In this document: positions 43,244 through 49,860 of the stretch, piece after piece
Layout of the letters: the number at the start of each line of letters is the position of its first letter
Numbering within the stretch: the stretch's first letter is position 1
Made by a program: the position numbers and the translations under genes
Source of the DNA: Candidatus Hydrogenedentota bacterium
GTDB lineage: Bacteria; Hydrogenedentota; Hydrogenedentia; Hydrogenedentales; CAITNO01
Reading direction: 5' to 3'
NCBI GenBank assembly: GCA_012523015.1
Contig: JAAYJI010000078.1
Coordinates: 1-49,987 of the forward strand
DNA length: 49,987 nucleotides
The notes under the pieces: generated by a model
What the model was told of the DNA's origin: nothing
Database searches by the model: none
The model's input: the letters and a program-made list of their open reading frames with translations, nothing else

Positions 43244-43822
43244 TTATTGCTCTATTAAATCATCGGGATCTACAGGCTCACTTTGTGCCAAATCGGGGGG
43301 CAGATCGTCGGCCGGCCAACTTTCCATCGCCAACGTAGCAACAGGATGAAAGGGGCAAGGAAACTGCGCCTTACCGGCGCTGCGGTCAATCAGAACTGAT
43401 ACACCGATTACTTCAGCGCCCCGTTCGATCAGATGATTGATAGACTTTAAAACGGAGCCGCCCGTCGTAATGACATCCTCCACCACCAACACGCGTTCGC
43501 CCGCTTTCAAACGGAAGCCTCGCTTCAATGCCATGCCTCCGCCATCGGCCTTTTCGGTATAGGCGGCGCGGCATCCCAACTGCCGTGCTGTTTCATAGGC
43601 TAAAATTATCCCGCCCGTGGCAGGGCCAATAACAAGATCAATGGCTGACGCTTCAAAGGGCGCTGCCAAAGCACGGCCCAGCGCTTCGCCATTTCCCGGA
43701 TATTGCAGAACCCGCGCCGCCTGCAGAAATTGGCGGCCATGACGGCCGCTTGTATAAAGGAAATGTCCTTCCAACAAAGCGCCCGTATCGCGAAACAACT
43801 GTATTACCTGCTCTGCCTTCAT
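43244..43822 (-). CDS. pyrE: Orotate phosphoribosyltransferase
   Basis: A 192-residue enzyme that joins orotate to PRPP to form OMP in de novo UMP synthesis. The PRPP loop is VLVVEDVITTGGS (about 111-123), and LVIGPATGGIILAYE lies upstream in the usual place. The start overlaps the pyrF stop by four bases (ATGA) and its ribosome-binding site GGAG lies in the pyrF coding end, so the two are coupled: together they catalyse the last two steps of the pathway, from orotate to UMP. Confidence 0.93.
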   Translation of the reverse strand: MKAEQVIQLFRDTGALLEGHFLYTSGRHGRQFLQAARVLQYPGNGEALGRALAAPFEASAIDLVIGPATGGIILAYETARQLGCRAAYTEKADGGGMALKRGFRLKAGERVLVVEDVITTGGSVLKSINHLIERGAEVIGVSVLIDRSAGKAQFPCPFHPVATLAMESWPADDLPPDLAQSEPVDPDDLIEQ

Positions 43823-44505
43823 AGATGTAACTCCTCCAAAATTTGTGCAGCAGCTTCTGATGGATTGGGGTGCTTCAAGATGGGACGACCCACTACAACC
43901 ATGGACGCGCCCGCTAAGGCGGCCTCCCGGGGGGTCATGACGCGCGCTTGATCATCCTTGGACGCCCACGTTGGGCGTACACCGGGTGTGACAATCAGCG
44001 GATCTTTTCCCAAGGCTTCCCGTAAAATTTCTATTTCTAAGGGGGAACATACGATACCGTGAGCACCTGCATCAATAGCCTGGAGGGCTAGACGACGGAC
44101 AGCATCTCGAACCTTCTCTCGTATTCCCACTTCTTCATGAAGCACCACCTCGCTGATGCTGGTCAGCACCGTAACCGCCAAAATGCGTGTGTCACTGCCT
44201 TCCACAGCCGCTCGTGCCGCTTCGATCATGGCACGTCCGCCGCCGGCATGAAGTGTCATGAGCCCGGCGCCGAGATCGGCGGCAGCGCGAGACGCAGCGC
44301 CCACCGTGTTCGGGATATCATGATATTTAAGGTCAAGAAAAACTTTTTTACCACAAGCCTGCACCTCGCGGACGATATCAGGACCGCAGCGCGTAAACAA
44401 TTGGGCGCCGATCTTAAACCATTCACAGGCGCCACATGCGTGAACCGCTTCCAAAGCGGCTTCACGGGTATCCATATCTAAAACAACAATTAATTCTGTT
44501 GACAT
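43819..44505 (-). CDS. pyrF: Orotidine 5'-phosphate decarboxylase
   Basis: A 228-residue TIM-barrel enzyme that decarboxylates OMP to UMP. Catalytic residues are in the signature FLDLKYHDIPNTV (Asp58, Lys60, Asp63) and Lys32 in WFKIGAQLF. The C-terminal IVTPGVRPTW phosphate-binding block is followed by the RVMTPREAALAGASMVVVGRPI stretch. It precedes pyrE with four-base overlap and lies 102 bases after the SCP2-like gene, so it may be read from the same long transcript. Confidence 0.94.
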   Translation of the reverse strand: MSTELIVVLDMDTREAALEAVHACGACEWFKIGAQLFTRCGPDIVREVQACGKKVFLDLKYHDIPNTVGAASRAAADLGAGLMTLHAGGGRAMIEAARAAVEGSDTRILAVTVLTSISEVVLHEEVGIREKVRDAVRRLALQAIDAGAHGIVCSPLEIEILREALGKDPLIVTPGVRPTWASKDDQARVMTPREAALAGASMVVVGRPILKHPNPSEAAAQILEELHL

Positions 44506-44607: not shown

Positions 44608-45402
44608 TCAAGATAACAATTTGGCGATTCGCAACATGAAATCACCAACACGCCCCCCGTATTCGGGAGAACCGTCATTGACAAGCAATCCCTGCGCAAT
44701 CGCTGTGACAGTATCTACCGAATTGGACAAGACCGGCAGCGCATTATCGACACTGGAGAAGCGCATATGGACAAAAGGCTGCCGCCGTGTGTAAACGCCA
44801 CGGCCTGCTTTGGTATTGCCCGCCTTCACTTTCAAATAACAGGCAATGTCTGAGCCTTCAACGCTCCATTGGTAAATACGTTCCGGTTGTTTCGACGTCC
44901 ACGCTTTCATGTCCGGATCGCCCGCTTTGTTCATACGGCTCAAGGCGGTTGAAACCATGTACAACGACATCTTCACTTTCAGATACGCTTTTTCCGGCGT
45001 TTTCGGTTGGGCGTTGGGCATTAAAATTTTCATTGCCAACAAGACCTTAAAGGTTTTCAGCAACAATCCGAAACGGCTGGGAATTGCCTTGAACAGCGGA
45101 CCTAAGCGCGGCAAAACAGGTTTTCCACGAAACATATCGTTCATTGATTTAAGGCTTGGAAAATCGAAAAGGAGATCCGCTTTGCCTTCGAAGATGCCTT
45201 GTTCTACGCAAAAGTCGCCCTTGTCGAAAACAAGGTAAGCGCCTACAGGCGCGTCCGTGTCTTGCGCACGAAATTGAACAATTCCGCTCAGCCCTTCAAA
45301 AGATTTTTTGAAGGCAGGATCGTCTTCGAGCAGCACTTTAATGACGGGCAACACGGCATGCAATACGATTTTTCCAGCCAATTGTTCGTCGGAGAACGTC
45401 AT
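44608..45402 (-). CDS. SCP2-like (sterol carrier protein fold) protein
   Basis: A 264-residue protein whose core (QFRAQDTDAPVGAYLVFDKGDF, GKADLLFDFPSLKSMNDMFRGK) fits an SCP2-like fold, which binds lipids in a hydrophobic tunnel. A second helical and beta segment follows (YLKVKMSLYMVSTALSRM, YLKVKAGNTKAGRGVY). No signal peptide is seen. It is a paralog of the protein encoded at 48759-49523: both share a ...DxxLxFxSPLxxxNxMFxxK-like block, then a linker and a similar C-terminal half. GAGGTG lies in the end of the upstream transketolase gene, three bases away, so the genes are translationally linked. Function unknown. Confidence 0.65.
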   Translation of the reverse strand: MTFSDEQLAGKIVLHAVLPVIKVLLEDDPAFKKSFEGLSGIVQFRAQDTDAPVGAYLVFDKGDFCVEQGIFEGKADLLFDFPSLKSMNDMFRGKPVLPRLGPLFKAIPSRFGLLLKTFKVLLAMKILMPNAQPKTPEKAYLKVKMSLYMVSTALSRMNKAGDPDMKAWTSKQPERIYQWSVEGSDIACYLKVKAGNTKAGRGVYTRRQPFVHMRFSSVDNALPVLSNSVDTVTAIAQGLLVNDGSPEYGGRVGDFMLRIAKLLS

Positions 45403-45405
45403 AGA

Positions 45406-46425
45406 TTACACCTCATCTTCCCAGTCTTCCGTCTCTTCAAACTCTCGATTCAACAATTCGCGAACCTTCTCTACGATGCCCTCTGTATCAATTTTGAAGT
45501 TGTGCATGAGGTCTTCCGGATGTCCATGAGGCGTGAAGGTGTCGGGGATACCCAGTTTTGTGAAGGCACAGGCTTTTCCGCTGCCGGCGATCACATCGGC
45601 CACTGCACTTCCCAATCCGTTGATAATAGAGTGATCTTCAACGGTGATCAAGCGCCGTGTATCAACAAGGGCTTTTAAAATGCTCTCTTCGTCCAAAGGT
45701 TTCAGTGTGTGCATATTGAGCACCCGCGCACTGATATCACTTTCTTCCTTAAGTATGTCCGCTGCTTGCACTGCATGCCAAACGGTGTTGCCTGTGGCAA
45801 TAATACATAAATCGGAACCGGAACGCATTTCAATGGCTTTGCCGATCTCAAATTCATAGTCTTCCGATTCATAAACGGCAGGCTCGAAACAGCGTCCAAT
45901 ACGAATGTAGACCGGCCCATCAATATCCATGCTCCGCTTCACGGCTTGCGCAGTCTCTATGGCGTCAGCCGGTACGATGACGGTCAGATTGGGCAAGGCG
46001 CGCACGATGGCGAAATCTTCAAGAGCGTGATGCGTACTTCCTGCAGAACCGAAGGAAATGCCGCCATGGGTTGCGATCACTTTCACATTCAGATTTTGGT
46101 AGCAAACATCAGTGCGCAGGAATTCACAAGCGCGCATAGACGCAAAAGCGGAGAAGGTAGAAACGAAAGGAATGAGCCCTGCCCTGGCAAGCCCTGCACT
46201 CACACCAAACATGTTTTGCTCGGCGATGCCGAAATTAAAAAAGCGATCGGGATAGGCGTCGCCGAAAGTTCCGATCTTGGTCGATTTCGCCAAATCCGCG
46301 GAAAGGCCCACAATTTCAGGATGAAGGGCGCCTAAATCTTTCAAGACGATGCCATAAATTTCCCGCTGAGAAAGGGTATTGGCATCATAAATGGTCCAAC
46401 TAAAGGTACTGTCTGTTTTTGACAT
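45406..46425 (-). CDS. Transketolase, C-terminal subunit
   Basis: A 339-residue protein holding the pyrimidine-binding and C-terminal domains of transketolase: FFNFGIAEQNMFGVSAGLA carries the conserved Glu that activates thiamine diphosphate, and THGGISFGSAGSTHHALEDFAI follows. Together with the N-terminal subunit encoded five bases upstream it would form a complete two-carbon-transferring enzyme. Split transketolases occur in many archaea and bacteria, often for specialised rather than housekeeping use. It ends in a very acidic tail (FEETEDWEDEV). Confidence 0.9.
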   Translation of the reverse strand: MSKTDSTFSWTIYDANTLSQREIYGIVLKDLGALHPEIVGLSADLAKSTKIGTFGDAYPDRFFNFGIAEQNMFGVSAGLARAGLIPFVSTFSAFASMRACEFLRTDVCYQNLNVKVIATHGGISFGSAGSTHHALEDFAIVRALPNLTVIVPADAIETAQAVKRSMDIDGPVYIRIGRCFEPAVYESEDYEFEIGKAIEMRSGSDLCIIATGNTVWHAVQAADILKEESDISARVLNMHTLKPLDEESILKALVDTRRLITVEDHSIINGLGSAVADVIAGSGKACAFTKLGIPDTFTPHGHPEDLMHNFKIDTEGIVEKVRELLNREFEETEDWEDEV

Positions 46426-46430
46426 GATGC

Positions 46431-47258
46431 TTATTCTCCTATGGATCGTTTGGCTGCTTCCACTTGTTCCGTACTCAGCCCGCCATAGTGCCAGCCCGGA
46501 TTGCCTTCCATATAATCAACGCCTTTGCCTTTGACCGTATCGCAAAGAATCATGAAGGGTTTCCCTTTATGCTGCAAAGCTTGTTCGATGGCGTCGGCAA
46601 GTTGAACCAAATCATGACCATCCACTTCCACGGTTTCAAAACCGAAAGCGCGCCACTTGTCCGCTAAGGGTTCAAGACTCATAACCTCTTCGGTGGGGCC
46701 GTCAATCATCATGTGGTTGCGATCTAAAAATACAATCAAATTATCTAGTTTATAGTGGGCTGCCGACATCGCCGCTTCCCAAATAGACCCTTCGTTGCTC
46801 TCTCCGTCGCCCACCAAGCAATAGACGCGCCAGTCTTTTTTCAGAACCCGAGCGCCCAAAGCCATTCCCACGGCTTGCGACAACCCATGACCCATGGAAC
46901 CCGTGGATGCCTCACATCCCAACACCTTATGGGCGTCCAAGTGCATGCCCAACATGGAATCGGTTTCATTGAATTCGCGCAGTTCCTTGCGGTCAAAATA
47001 GCCTCGTTGCGCCAAGACCACGGCATGACCCACGCCGCCGTGTCCTTTGCTCAAAACGAAACGGTCCCGCTCTTCCCAGTCCGGCCGAGACGGATCAATA
47101 TTCATATACTTCCAATACAACACGGTCAGTATATCCACCATACTGAGCGAACCGCCAACGTGCGCGCCTCCGGACCAGCCTGTGACATCCACAATCTCCC
47201 GGCGTATTAATTTCGCGCGCTCCTGCAGCACTTCCAATTCTTGACTTGTCAATGTCAT
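46431..47258 (-). CDS. Transketolase, N-terminal subunit
   Basis: A 275-residue protein with the pyrophosphate-binding half of transketolase: GDGESNEGSIWEA (about 150-162) is the thiamine-diphosphate/Mg2+ motif, HVGGSLSMVDILTVLYW and FVLSKGHGGVGHAVVLA precede it and STGSMGHGLSQAVGMALG is typical. The ATG at 47258 has GAGGG upstream; a GTG three codons earlier is the alternative. It is followed immediately by the C-terminal subunit. A 188-base gap separates it from the aminotransferase upstream, containing two small hairpins but no clear terminator. Confidence 0.9.
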   Translation of the reverse strand: MTLTSQELEVLQERAKLIRREIVDVTGWSGGAHVGGSLSMVDILTVLYWKYMNIDPSRPDWEERDRFVLSKGHGGVGHAVVLAQRGYFDRKELREFNETDSMLGMHLDAHKVLGCEASTGSMGHGLSQAVGMALGARVLKKDWRVYCLVGDGESNEGSIWEAAMSAAHYKLDNLIVFLDRNHMMIDGPTEEVMSLEPLADKWRAFGFETVEVDGHDLVQLADAIEQALQHKGKPFMILCDTVKGKGVDYMEGNPGWHYGGLSTEQVEAAKRSIGE

Positions 47259-47446
47259 AAAGGACACCCTCTTCTTTAACGTTGTTATCCTGCCTTACTT
47301 TTCAAGTGGCTTCCGATCGGGCACACACGATACCCGACACACGCTCAGGGTATAAAACCCTCATCCCACACCAAACAATACACATCAGCCTTATGTAAAG
47401 GCAAATTTCCCTTGATCCTGATTGGTATTTTTCGGATAGGTAAAAC

Positions 47447-48694
47447 TCAGGCGCTTTCTGTATTCTTTTTGAGTGCCGTGAAAGCGGCGTCACAGATTTC
47501 CAAGGTACGCCGAATATCCTCTTCCGTGTGGGCGGCTGACACGAACCAATTATGATGAGAGGTAAAGAATGCGCCGCGGCGCGTACATTCACCGCACCAT
47601 TGCTGATGGAGCATCAAACTATCATCATCGGTTAAGCGCAAATAGGGCATGGATGGTTCACCGGAAACTTTCATGGTAAAGCCATGTGCTGCGGCGCTGT
47701 CCACAATACCATCTGTCAATTGTTTGCCCAGCCCCAAGATCAGTTCCGGTCCATTGATCCGCTTCAATTCTGTGAGACAGGCTATGGCGGCAGCAAAAGA
47801 CGCGGCACAGAACCAAAAGCTGCCCGTCTGAAAAACCCGCGATGCATCAACGCGCAAGGCTTCCACACCGACAAGTGCAGACAAGGCATAGCCATTGGCA
47901 ATAGCTTTCGAAAAGGCGATTAAATCGGGCTTAAACCCATAATGTTCACAGGAACCGCCCATATGCAGCCTGAATCCTGCGCGCACATCATCCACAATGA
48001 TGACGCTGCCATTCTTGCGCAGCAGCGCTGTCGCCTGTTCCCAATAGCCCGGCGCCGGCAGTTCATTATCCGCAAAAATGGGGTGATGATAGGGGGACGC
48101 AATAAAGCCGGCAATATCGGCTCCATGTTCCGCTAATACGGCTTCCAGCGCAGGGATATCATTCCAAGGGATACGAATCAGATGATCATGATCACCGTCA
48201 ACAACCCCATGATGACCGGGCGCTTGCATCCACGGAGAGGTTCCATGATAGCCGCCGTTAATGGCAATAATCTTTTTGCGGCCTGTAGCGGAACGCGCGA
48301 CCATAACAGCCATATTGGTTACATCGGCGCCGTTCTTGGCAAAAAAGGCCCATTCTGCGACGGGAATGGTATCTACCATCAATTCCGCCAGCTCCACCAT
48401 GCGCGGCGAGGCTACGGTATTGGCGTCGGCAGCGGCGCGCTGTTTTAGGTAGGCTTCATCCACTGCGGCATTTCCATAGCCCAAAATCATGGGCCCGTAA
48501 GCACACATGTAATCGATGAATTCATTGCCGTCCACATCCCAAAAGCGCGCTCCTTCTGCACGTTCTGAGAAGAAGGGATACGATTCTACAGGGACACAGG
48601 GGGCGGGGCTGAAATGACCATAGATACCGCAAGGAATCACTTTTGCCGCCCGTTTAAACCACGCTCTTGAGTTTTCAAATGTGTAGGTTTCCAA
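47447..48694 (-). CDS. Class III PLP-dependent aminotransferase (GSA-aminotransferase-like)
   Basis: A 415-residue enzyme of aspartate aminotransferase fold type I, subgroup III. Landmarks are FWDVDGNEFIDYMCAYGPMI, FFAKNGADVTNMAVMVAR, GGYHG, VIIVDDVRAGFR (PLP-ring Asp) and IAFSKAIANGY with PLP-binding Lys263. Relatives include glutamate-1-semialdehyde 2,1-aminomutase and sugar or polyamine aminotransferases; the hemL-specific GGG after the lysine is absent, arguing against a heme role. The start is TTG at 48694, eight bases after AAGGAG; the upstream GTG lacks such a site. In an operon with a split transketolase and two SCP2-like proteins. Confidence 0.88.
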   Translation of the reverse strand: METYTFENSRAWFKRAAKVIPCGIYGHFSPAPCVPVESYPFFSERAEGARFWDVDGNEFIDYMCAYGPMILGYGNAAVDEAYLKQRAAADANTVASPRMVELAELMVDTIPVAEWAFFAKNGADVTNMAVMVARSATGRKKIIAINGGYHGTSPWMQAPGHHGVVDGDHDHLIRIPWNDIPALEAVLAEHGADIAGFIASPYHHPIFADNELPAPGYWEQATALLRKNGSVIIVDDVRAGFRLHMGGSCEHYGFKPDLIAFSKAIANGYALSALVGVEALRVDASRVFQTGSFWFCAASFAAAIACLTELKRINGPELILGLGKQLTDGIVDSAAAHGFTMKVSGEPSMPYLRLTDDDSLMLHQQWCGECTRRGAFFTSHHNWFVSAAHTEEDIRRTLEICDAAFTALKKNTESA

Positions 48695-48758
48695 AAGAGA
48701 TACTCCTTTTTTTATCACAGGCTGTGGGTCTTCTTAATCAAAAAGAAAACAGCCGGTC

Positions 48759-49523
48759 TTAGGATAAATAGGTGCCAATACGATCCAAGATCAGATTCGT
48801 GTTGTCAATCAAAGGTAACATACCCCTGAGCTCCACATCGCCCAAGGCGACAGAACCAAACTCATCCAATTCACCGGTAAAGGCGGCATTGGCAATTTCG
48901 TGATTACGGAAAGACAAGACCGCGCTCGCATCCTTGATCTCGCCACGTCCACAATCGACAATACCTTTGTCTTTATAGCGCGCCCATGCATAGGGCCCCT
49001 CCGGCAAGATACGAATTTGTACGATCCCGGACGGGGTCTGAGCGGCCACTATAGAGGCAACGGGATCCAATGCTGCCAACTCTTTGGCGGCATAGGCGGC
49101 GGTATATAAAGACAAGGCTGTATTGATGCGCTTATAGGTATCATCGCGGGGCGTATTTTGATCAGGCTTTAAAAAATATTCCAAGCGCTGCGTAAGTTGT
49201 GCGAACTCATTTTTTAAGAAGCCAAGCCGCGTAAACCCCTTCAACGGAATGGGATTCCCTTTGTTCTCAAACATGTTGTTTAACTGCAGCGGAGACATGA
49301 AAAACAGAATTACATCGGAAGCCGCCTGAGCCTCTTGCTCAAAATAGCAACGCCCCTCTTTAAAGCGCAGCACCGGCGAGATATCCCCTTTAATCCAAAA
49401 GCGTATGGATACATCCCAGTCTTTGATTTGCGCCTGTGTCTCTGTGTCAAGCTCGGGCAGTACTTCAAGATTGCGCAACACTGCGTTCAGGTTTAACCGT
49501 GCTTTTAGCGTGTCTGTTATCAT
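48759..49523 (-). CDS. SCP2-like (sterol carrier protein fold) protein, paralog of the 44608 gene
   Basis: A 254-residue soluble protein. The N-terminal half is SCP2-like (WDVSIRFWIKGDISPVLRFK, then SDVILFFMSPLQLNNMFENK), followed by a helical linker (KRINTALSLYTAAYAAKEL) and a second beta-rich half (GIVQIRILPEGPYAWARYKD). The order of elements matches the protein encoded at 44608-45402, though identity is low. AAGGTGG precedes the ATG. It is the first gene of the operon (49523 to 44608 on the minus strand), 64 bases before the aminotransferase. Function unknown; a lipid-binding carrier is a reasonable guess. Confidence 0.62.
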   Translation of the reverse strand: MITDTLKARLNLNAVLRNLEVLPELDTETQAQIKDWDVSIRFWIKGDISPVLRFKEGRCYFEQEAQAASDVILFFMSPLQLNNMFENKGNPIPLKGFTRLGFLKNEFAQLTQRLEYFLKPDQNTPRDDTYKRINTALSLYTAAYAAKELAALDPVASIVAAQTPSGIVQIRILPEGPYAWARYKDKGIVDCGRGEIKDASAVLSFRNHEIANAAFTGELDEFGSVALGDVELRGMLPLIDNTNLILDRIGTYLS

Positions 49524-49860
49524 GAATATCCACCTTGCCGCTATGGTGAAAGATCCACCATGGTCCGTATCCGGGTTCTAAAAACAAGTTTATCAGTAGT
49601 AAGAATAGGGGCGACTCCAAAAACATACGGCCACTGTCTCAAGCAAAGGCTTTGCTTTTGTGTAACAATCTATTTTTTTCGCCCTTCTGTACCTTACAGG
49701 CTCGGCAAATCATACAAGACTAGACTACCAAAAATAGGCTTTTGTTTCAACTGAGCTGTTCCCCGACCTCTAAAAGTAAGTATGACCCATTTACGAGGTG
49801 CAGCGATGCATCAATAAAAAAGCCGCGCCCAATTGTGTTTCAGGCGCGGCTTGCAAACAA
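49524..49860. other. Upstream region of the SCP2/transketolase operon
   Basis: No gene is seen. It carries an ATGGTG/CACCAT hairpin near 49539-49559 in the predicted leader, a 7-bp hairpin with 3-nt loop (arms 49641-49647 and 49651-49657), and a minus-strand terminator (49820-49852). No confident -10/-35 pair for the operon was found. Confidence 0.4.
49812..49852 (-). terminator. Intrinsic terminator beside the IS30 left end
   Basis: A perfect 10-bp stem (AAGCCGCGCC, 49820-49829, with 49843-49852) encloses a 13-nt loop. On the minus strand it runs into TTTTTTATT. No minus-strand gene lies to its right before the IS30 end at 49861, so it is probably the terminator of a gene now separated by the insertion. 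Confidence 0.65.

Follow-up and report, generated by a model that had tools for sequence, protein, structure and literature searches.

What could a bacterium make, or break down, with a split transketolase and a class III aminotransferase set between two SCP2-like proteins? The question is raised by five genes of a Candidatus Hydrogenedentota bacterium, found on a stretch of 49,987 nucleotides (contig JAAYJI010000078.1, the window of this analysis) that is one entire contig of a 3.7-Mb genome with a completeness of 96%.

Organization of the locus

All five genes lie on the minus strand, as do the other features given here. The first gene of the operon, SCPa (48759..49523), codes for a protein of 254 amino acids with SCP2-like folds and is followed by the class III aminotransferase gene AT (47447..48694), by TKN (46431..47258) and TKC (45406..46425), which code for the two halves of the transketolase, and by the last gene of the module, SCPb (44608..45402), whose product has 264 amino acids. 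The enzymes were recognized far over the cut-off by Pfam profiles (Aminotran_3, PF00202, for AT; Transketolase_N, PF00456, with 7.4e-50 for the ThDP-binding half TKN; Transket_pyr, PF02779, and Transketolase_C, PF02780, for TKC, the pyrimidine-binding and C-terminal half). For AT and TKN, start codons were chosen on the strength of ribosome-binding sites and aligned relatives: AT starts with TTG at 48694 behind AAAGGAG, in a reading frame that stays open to a GTG at 48718, and TKN starts with ATG at 47258. With these starts, the gaps are 64 bases (SCPa-AT), 188 (AT-TKN), 5 (TKN-TKC) and 3 (TKC-SCPb), so that the gene order, the common strand and all four distances read by the first-pass annotation hold exactly. 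Its suggestion that the AT-TKN spacer (47259..47446) may contain a second promoter found no support: the spacer is not conserved, its length varies among relatives (the apparent ORF distance goes from an overlap to about 730 bases) and the window has 7 promoter-like matches where 6.6 would be expected by chance. Upstream of the operon, a hairpin of 13 pairs with a T run (49820..49852) came top of the terminator scan and is the probable terminator of the preceding transcript.

Conservation and distribution of the module

When 84,980 named genomes were searched with an AT profile, 64 loci were obtained, 38 of which, all in other, named genomes, contain the five genes in identical order and strand. 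These complete loci come from at least six phyla, with hosts in the Hydrogenedentota, Desulfobacterota (Desulfosarcina widdelii and Desulfosudis oleivorans), Spirochaetota, Bacteroidota (Draconibacterium and Carboxylicivirga), Actinomycetota and Bacillota, and the hosts are mostly uncultured bacteria. Most incomplete loci are interrupted by contig ends. The true exceptions with ample sequence are four loci without all or part of the transketolase (L048, L071, L074 and L079), one, L061, in which SCPa was not found, and L088 and L091, the most divergent of the loci with AT only. The flanking genes vary by group, and pyrF-pyrE adjoins the module only in close relatives. Because order and strand are kept in 38 loci of at least six phyla while the flanks change, the five-gene arrangement is more than chance. 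Pairwise distances of the five proteins also correlate across loci (r of 0.54 to 0.87), which indicates that they evolve roughly as a unit. The genes thus stay linked in relatives across phyla, in agreement with the initial reading of a module.

Within the same order, SCPa is present in 26 of 40 genomes, and the fetched loci have SCPa, AT, TKN, TKC and SCPb in sequence, broken only by contig ends. The distribution in the Hydrogenedentota follows families, the module (scored by SCPa) being found in 26 of the 27 genomes of five families and in none of the 13 genomes of six others.

SCP2-like proteins

Both flanking proteins had been called SCP2-like from their sequence. A search with the Pfam SCP2 profile (PF02036, cut-off 21.3 bits) recovers SCPb with 23.7 bits and leaves SCPa below the threshold with 12.7 bits. 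The two proteins are nonetheless homologous along their whole length (hhalign probability 99%), which agrees with the common order of elements noticed at first. The N- and C-terminal halves of SCPa are also homologous to each other (hhalign 95%), while those of SCPb match in fold only. AlphaFold models computed from aligned relatives (pLDDT of 92.6 for SCPa and 91.3 for SCPb) contain the same string of elements twice, namely, helices, four strands and helices. When compared by Foldseek, both models match many SCP2 structures with a probability of 1.00 and target-normalized TM scores of up to 0.70 for SCPa (reached with human SCP-2L) and 0.61 for SCPb. The matches also comprise a mosquito SCP-2 in complex with a C16 fatty acid (1pz4) and, for SCPb, UbiJ-SCP2 and the SCP2-like part of the alkylsulfatase SdsA1. 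The predicted folds therefore bear out the first assignment, and the models indicate that SCPa and SCPb are tandem double SCP2 proteins, two paralogues in one operon.

Aminotransferase

The nearest solved structure to AT is the aminotransferase FumI (6hbs), which scores 313.8 bits compared with 160 for glutamate-1-semialdehyde aminomutase. Identity to FumI is only about 40%, and both have a YGH stretch and an HN near the C terminus. In HemL, the glutamate-1-semialdehyde aminomutase, the arginine of the motif GGVNSPVR binds the substrate carboxylate. This motif is replaced in AT, the curated HemL model gives 197.5 bits with a cut-off of 527.3, and a separate true HemL is present elsewhere in the same genome, so AT was ruled out as a HemL. 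FumI moves the 2-amino group of hydrolyzed fumonisin B1, an analogue of sphinganine, to pyruvate and is a catabolic enzyme (PMC2933618). FumI-like enzymes outside the module are 37 to 44% identical, are plasmid-borne and come mostly from aerobic proteobacteria; in the three records inspected, their genes adjoin ABC transporter genes, with no transketolase or SCP2 gene.

Split transketolase

The best match in the PDB for both halves is the split transketolase of Carboxydothermus hydrogenoformans (6yaj and 6yak), 6yak being the closest to TKN. Among the module proteins, H36, H76 and H109 of TKN are invariant and H260 nearly so, and H132 (E. coli H473), H120 (E. coli H461) and E69 of TKC are also invariant. 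With the ThDP-binding and pyrimidine-binding domains on two chains and the catalytic histidines kept, the pair is, judged by its residues, a split transketolase. Since these histidines are of the transketolase type, a ketol donor would fit better than an acetyl donor, and 1-deoxy bases made via acetyl transfer are consequently not favored.

The acceptor site is changed. In E. coli numbering, which we mapped from the aligned GEDGPTHQ stretch, the position of D469 is Ala or Gly in all 43 module TKC proteins (Ala in the window) and His takes the place of Q474 in 42 of them, while the seven full-length transketolases of the same genomes that could be aligned all have D and Q (the comparison covers these seven sequences, with L151 and L155 to L157 left out). 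All 43 retain the residues equivalent to S385 and R520, which contact the phosphate, and the R358 position is variable (18 R, 18 A, 3 K, 2 S and 2 N). The D469T change, later combined with R520Q and S385Y, was used in the laboratory to evolve the E. coli enzyme towards nonpolar aliphatic and aromatic aldehydes (PMC5073344). The module enzyme lacks the acceptor-site Asp by which a pentose-phosphate transketolase is recognized; it probably works like a transketolase, and we do not class it as a pentose-phosphate one. Across phyla, an acidic stretch surrounding a Trp (DEDWEDEV and variants) forms the C-terminal tail of every complete module TKC, and a role as a docking peptide suggests itself.

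Genomic neighbors and co-occurring genes

In three Desulfobacterales loci, the module has an alanine dehydrogenase (AlaDH) gene and a divergent TetR gene as neighbors, and AlaDH is directly downstream of AT in one of the AT-only loci; the AlaDH genes match the alanine/pyruvate pair of FumI. In four Hydrogenedens-type loci, a PlsC-like acyltransferase is found directly upstream on the same strand. An ALDH of the class-3/fatty-aldehyde type is located 58 bp downstream of the module in Draconibacterium, where its second-best solved match is a fatty aldehyde dehydrogenase (4qgk), and divergently in Carboxylicivirga. TetR regulators accompany the module in Desulfobacterota and Spirochaetota, and Crp-type regulators are also adjacent. 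Taken together, the neighbors suggest that a long-chain aldehyde and an amine are involved, with no consistent direction. Across the loci examined, the module has no constant partner among transporters, ceramidases or ALDHs, and no linked source of fatty aldehyde was found in the Hydrogenedentota, where neither the LuxC nor the acyl-reductase (NAD_binding_4) family tracks with its presence. Proteins with a ceramidase domain occur in 40/40 genomes and do not discriminate.

The genome of the window gave no match for an alpha-oxoamine synthase, while 13 of 14 control genomes did, and it therefore has no SPT. Among the relatives, only one genome with the module (G017) has a true SPT, and SPT or SPT-like genes were found in module-bearing genomes of two Bacteroidota, one Nitrospirae and one Spirochaete MAG, and the module and SPT thus do not strictly exclude each other. 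Alpha-oxoamine synthases are less frequent in relatives with the module (2/26) than in those without it (7/14), an anticorrelation that we did not use as a sign of SPT replacement, since most of these proteins are BioF, several of them encoded beside bioD. Amines of hopanoids (aminotriol synthesis) were rejected, as squalene-hopene cyclase was over the cut-off in none of the 40 Hydrogenedentota genomes.

Proposed pathway and alternatives

In the pathway that we infer, TKN and TKC would transfer a ketol unit from a ketose donor to a long-chain fatty aldehyde (R-CHO), giving a 1,3-dihydroxy-2-ketone (R-CHOH-CO-CH2OH), which AT would transaminate with alanine to pyruvate and a 2-amino-1,3-diol (R-CHOH-CHNH2-CH2OH), a sphinganine-type base that for the right R would be sphinganine itself. 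The cargo of SCPa and SCPb would be the water-insoluble aldehyde, ketone or base, shuttled between the membrane and the soluble enzymes, and TKC may use its acidic tail as a docking site for a carrier or the aminotransferase. We give this lipid-amine module, working without SPT and preferably in the synthetic direction, a probability of roughly 0.4. We count in its favor the 38 loci, an aminotransferase nearest to FumI, the D469 and Q474 changes, the double SCP2 folds, the AlaDH and PlsC-like neighbors and the lack of SPT in the window's own genome. Against it, we count the lack of a linked aldehyde source, the catabolic role of FumI with its ABC-transporter-flanked relatives, the low identity to FumI and the presence of SPT in some hosts; in addition, the ALDH of two Bacteroidota and the TetR regulators would also fit breakdown. 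The larger claim that the module is a second, independent bacterial route to sphingoid-type bases, in which ketol transfer and transamination replace SPT and tandem SCP2 carriers maybe dock on the acidic tail, is more tentative.

The main rival, and a serious one, is the same chemistry in reverse, with AT deaminating a sphingoid-type base, the transketolase moving the C2 unit to a sugar phosphate, the fatty aldehyde being oxidized and the SCP proteins extracting the lipid. A catabolic FumI (PMC2933618), an AlaDH that could recycle pyruvate, the ALDH neighbors of Draconibacterium and Carboxylicivirga, the adjacent TetR and Crp-type regulators and the SPT of some module genomes all speak for this direction, which we nevertheless consider somewhat doubtful. 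Synthesis was put first because the module follows whole families of Hydrogenedentota as a core function would, instead of being patchy, because the linkage seen in one genus, Hydrogenedens, is to an acyltransferase and not to an oxidative enzyme, and because no transporter or ceramidase (nor any ALDH) is constantly linked in the loci examined. The same two steps could also act on another hydrophobic acceptor, such as an isoprenoid, polyketide or modified fatty acid aldehyde or ketone, and yield a different lipid amine. The active site suggests only an acceptor without the usual sugar hydroxyl, and SCP2 folds bind many lipids, but the nearest characterized aminotransferase works on a linear long-chain 2-amine and hopanoids are unlikely for want of a cyclase over the cut-off in the Hydrogenedentota genomes examined; this variant is improbable in our estimate.

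Transketolase and aminotransferase pairs occur in amino-sugar-type pathways, and the first-pass annotation had proposed an amino-polyol or an amino-sugar. If an amino-sugar or aminocyclitol were made from water-soluble substrates and then joined to a lipid by the SCP2 proteins, this pairing and the retained phosphate contacts would both fit. However, the loss of the D469 and Q474 equivalents alters the sugar-acceptor site, no glycosyltransferase or sugar-nucleotide gene was recognized among the neighbors examined and AT is nearest to a lipid-amine enzyme, which makes the sugar the less supported half of that proposal and, in our view, a decidedly improbable one. The kinship of AT with FumI and the altered acceptor site both lend support to its other idea, that the acceptor or the product is hydrophobic. 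The housekeeping role that it had also considered would leave an ordinary split transketolase sharing an operon with an aminotransferase by happenstance. In line with this, no full-length transketolase was found in the genome of the window (where Transket_pyr otherwise occurs in DXS and pyruvate dehydrogenase E1) or in the other Hydrogenedentota examined, in which the module holds the sole transketolase. Yet an ordinary full-length enzyme is also encoded in 11 of the 12 module-hit genomes of other phyla, not one strong transketolase match was obtained for the Hydrogenedentota families that lack the module, the acceptor site is changed and the linkage is kept across phyla. Housekeeping is thus unlikely as a general explanation, and we regard it as the least probable of these readings.

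Comparison with known systems

Open-literature text searches for the five-gene combination, which leave most subscription journals outside their coverage, found nothing, as the first-pass annotation had anticipated in knowing of no such pathway. The assembled module, the change of the acceptor site and the acidic tail appear to be undescribed, although all five proteins are members of known superfamilies. The C. hydrogenoformans transketolase resembles that of the module in having two chains and aligned catalytic histidines, but it possesses the GEDG Asp (D469) and the equivalent of Q474 where the module has GSAG or GSGG and His, and its alignment stops short of the acidic Trp tail. If the proposed reading is true, nature would have made in the module transketolase the same step towards nonpolar aldehydes as the engineers, the loss of D469, and the enzyme would be a useful catalyst for chiral amino-diols. 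The SCP2 and UbiJ-SCP2 carriers and the SCP2-like part of SdsA1 have in common with SCPa and SCPb the predicted fold, which in these known proteins is a lipid- or alkyl-chain-binding domain, whereas the module has two such predicted domains per protein and two paralogues per operon, without a catalytic domain.

FumI, the aminopentol aminotransferase of Sphingopyxis sp. MTA144 (6hbs and 6hbv), is, like AT, a class III PLP enzyme and can be aligned over residues 22 to 419. Its own role is in fumonisin degradation, on the 2-amine of a sphinganine-like chain, which for AT is the substrate type that we propose. A similar sequence of enzyme classes is found in the synthesis of the prodigiosin precursor MAP, in which the ThDP enzyme PigD acts on a fatty aldehyde and is followed by the class III aminotransferase PigE. 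PigD, in contrast to the ThDP enzyme of the module, does not belong to the transketolases, and the unit that it transfers is acetyl; AT matches the PigE model (9e-25) far under its cut-off, and no SCP2 carriers are known from the PigD/PigE system.

Surveys of bacterial sphingolipid producers use SPT genes as the key marker (PMC11334938, PMC12619533), and those of anaerobic producers rely on Spt, CerR and bCerS (PMC11334938). A module that makes or breaks such bases without SPT would, if real, change the counts of producers and consumers in anoxic waters and sediments. Synthesis by Spt, CerR and bCerS (PMC11334938) has the product class that we propose for the module, long-chain bases, and occurs in overlapping phyla (Desulfobacterota and Bacteroidota). 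The proposed route would differ from it in dispensing with SPT, with a ketol-transferring ThDP enzyme forming the C-C bond to an aldehyde acceptor and a transaminase introducing the amine last.

Genomic context of the module

On the minus strand of the window, the five-gene module (two SCP2-fold proteins, SCPa and SCPb, bracketing the aminotransferase AT and the transketolase halves TKN and TKC) is followed by pyrF and pyrE (window 43244-44505, minus strand). As these genes adjoin the module in near relatives only, their adjacency is probably coincidental. Upstream of the operon, a strong terminator-like hairpin (49820-49852, minus strand) probably ends the preceding transcript.

Elsewhere, the aminotransferases of loci L044 and L056 share 65 to 70% identity with the window AT, and the names on these loci are Verrucomicrobia subdivision 3 and Nitrospiraceae, which reflects either transfer or mis-binned contigs. 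The SCPa-AT pair occurs twice (L074 and L100) in a single Desulfobacteraceae MAG, STF1_291. At L071 and L074, two genes, one of the DUF3786 type and one of the DNA-methylase type, take the place of the transketolase 3' of AT.

Gene content of Hydrogenedentota genomes

Whole-genome searches of 40 Hydrogenedentota genomes (G000-G039, G000 being the window's own) gave a strong match to full-length transketolase in none of them, and the Hydrogenedentota families that are free of the module seem to be without any transketolase. G000 gave zero matches of any kind to alpha-oxoamine synthases (BioF, KBL, and SPT included), which suggests a gap in its usual biotin pathway. The ceramidase N-terminal domain family PF04734 was matched in all 40 genomes, with up to 18 matches per genome, many within proteins of roughly 400 to 900 amino acids.

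Acidic tail of TKC

TKC ends in an acidic, Trp-containing peptide (window 45406-45430, minus strand; DEDWEDEV and variants). DEDWEDEV-type peptides with Trp are near-invariant at module TKC C termini in all phyla (loci L037-L097). The alignment shows no counterpart in the split transketolase of Carboxydothermus hydrogenoformans, the best PDB match to both TKN and TKC.
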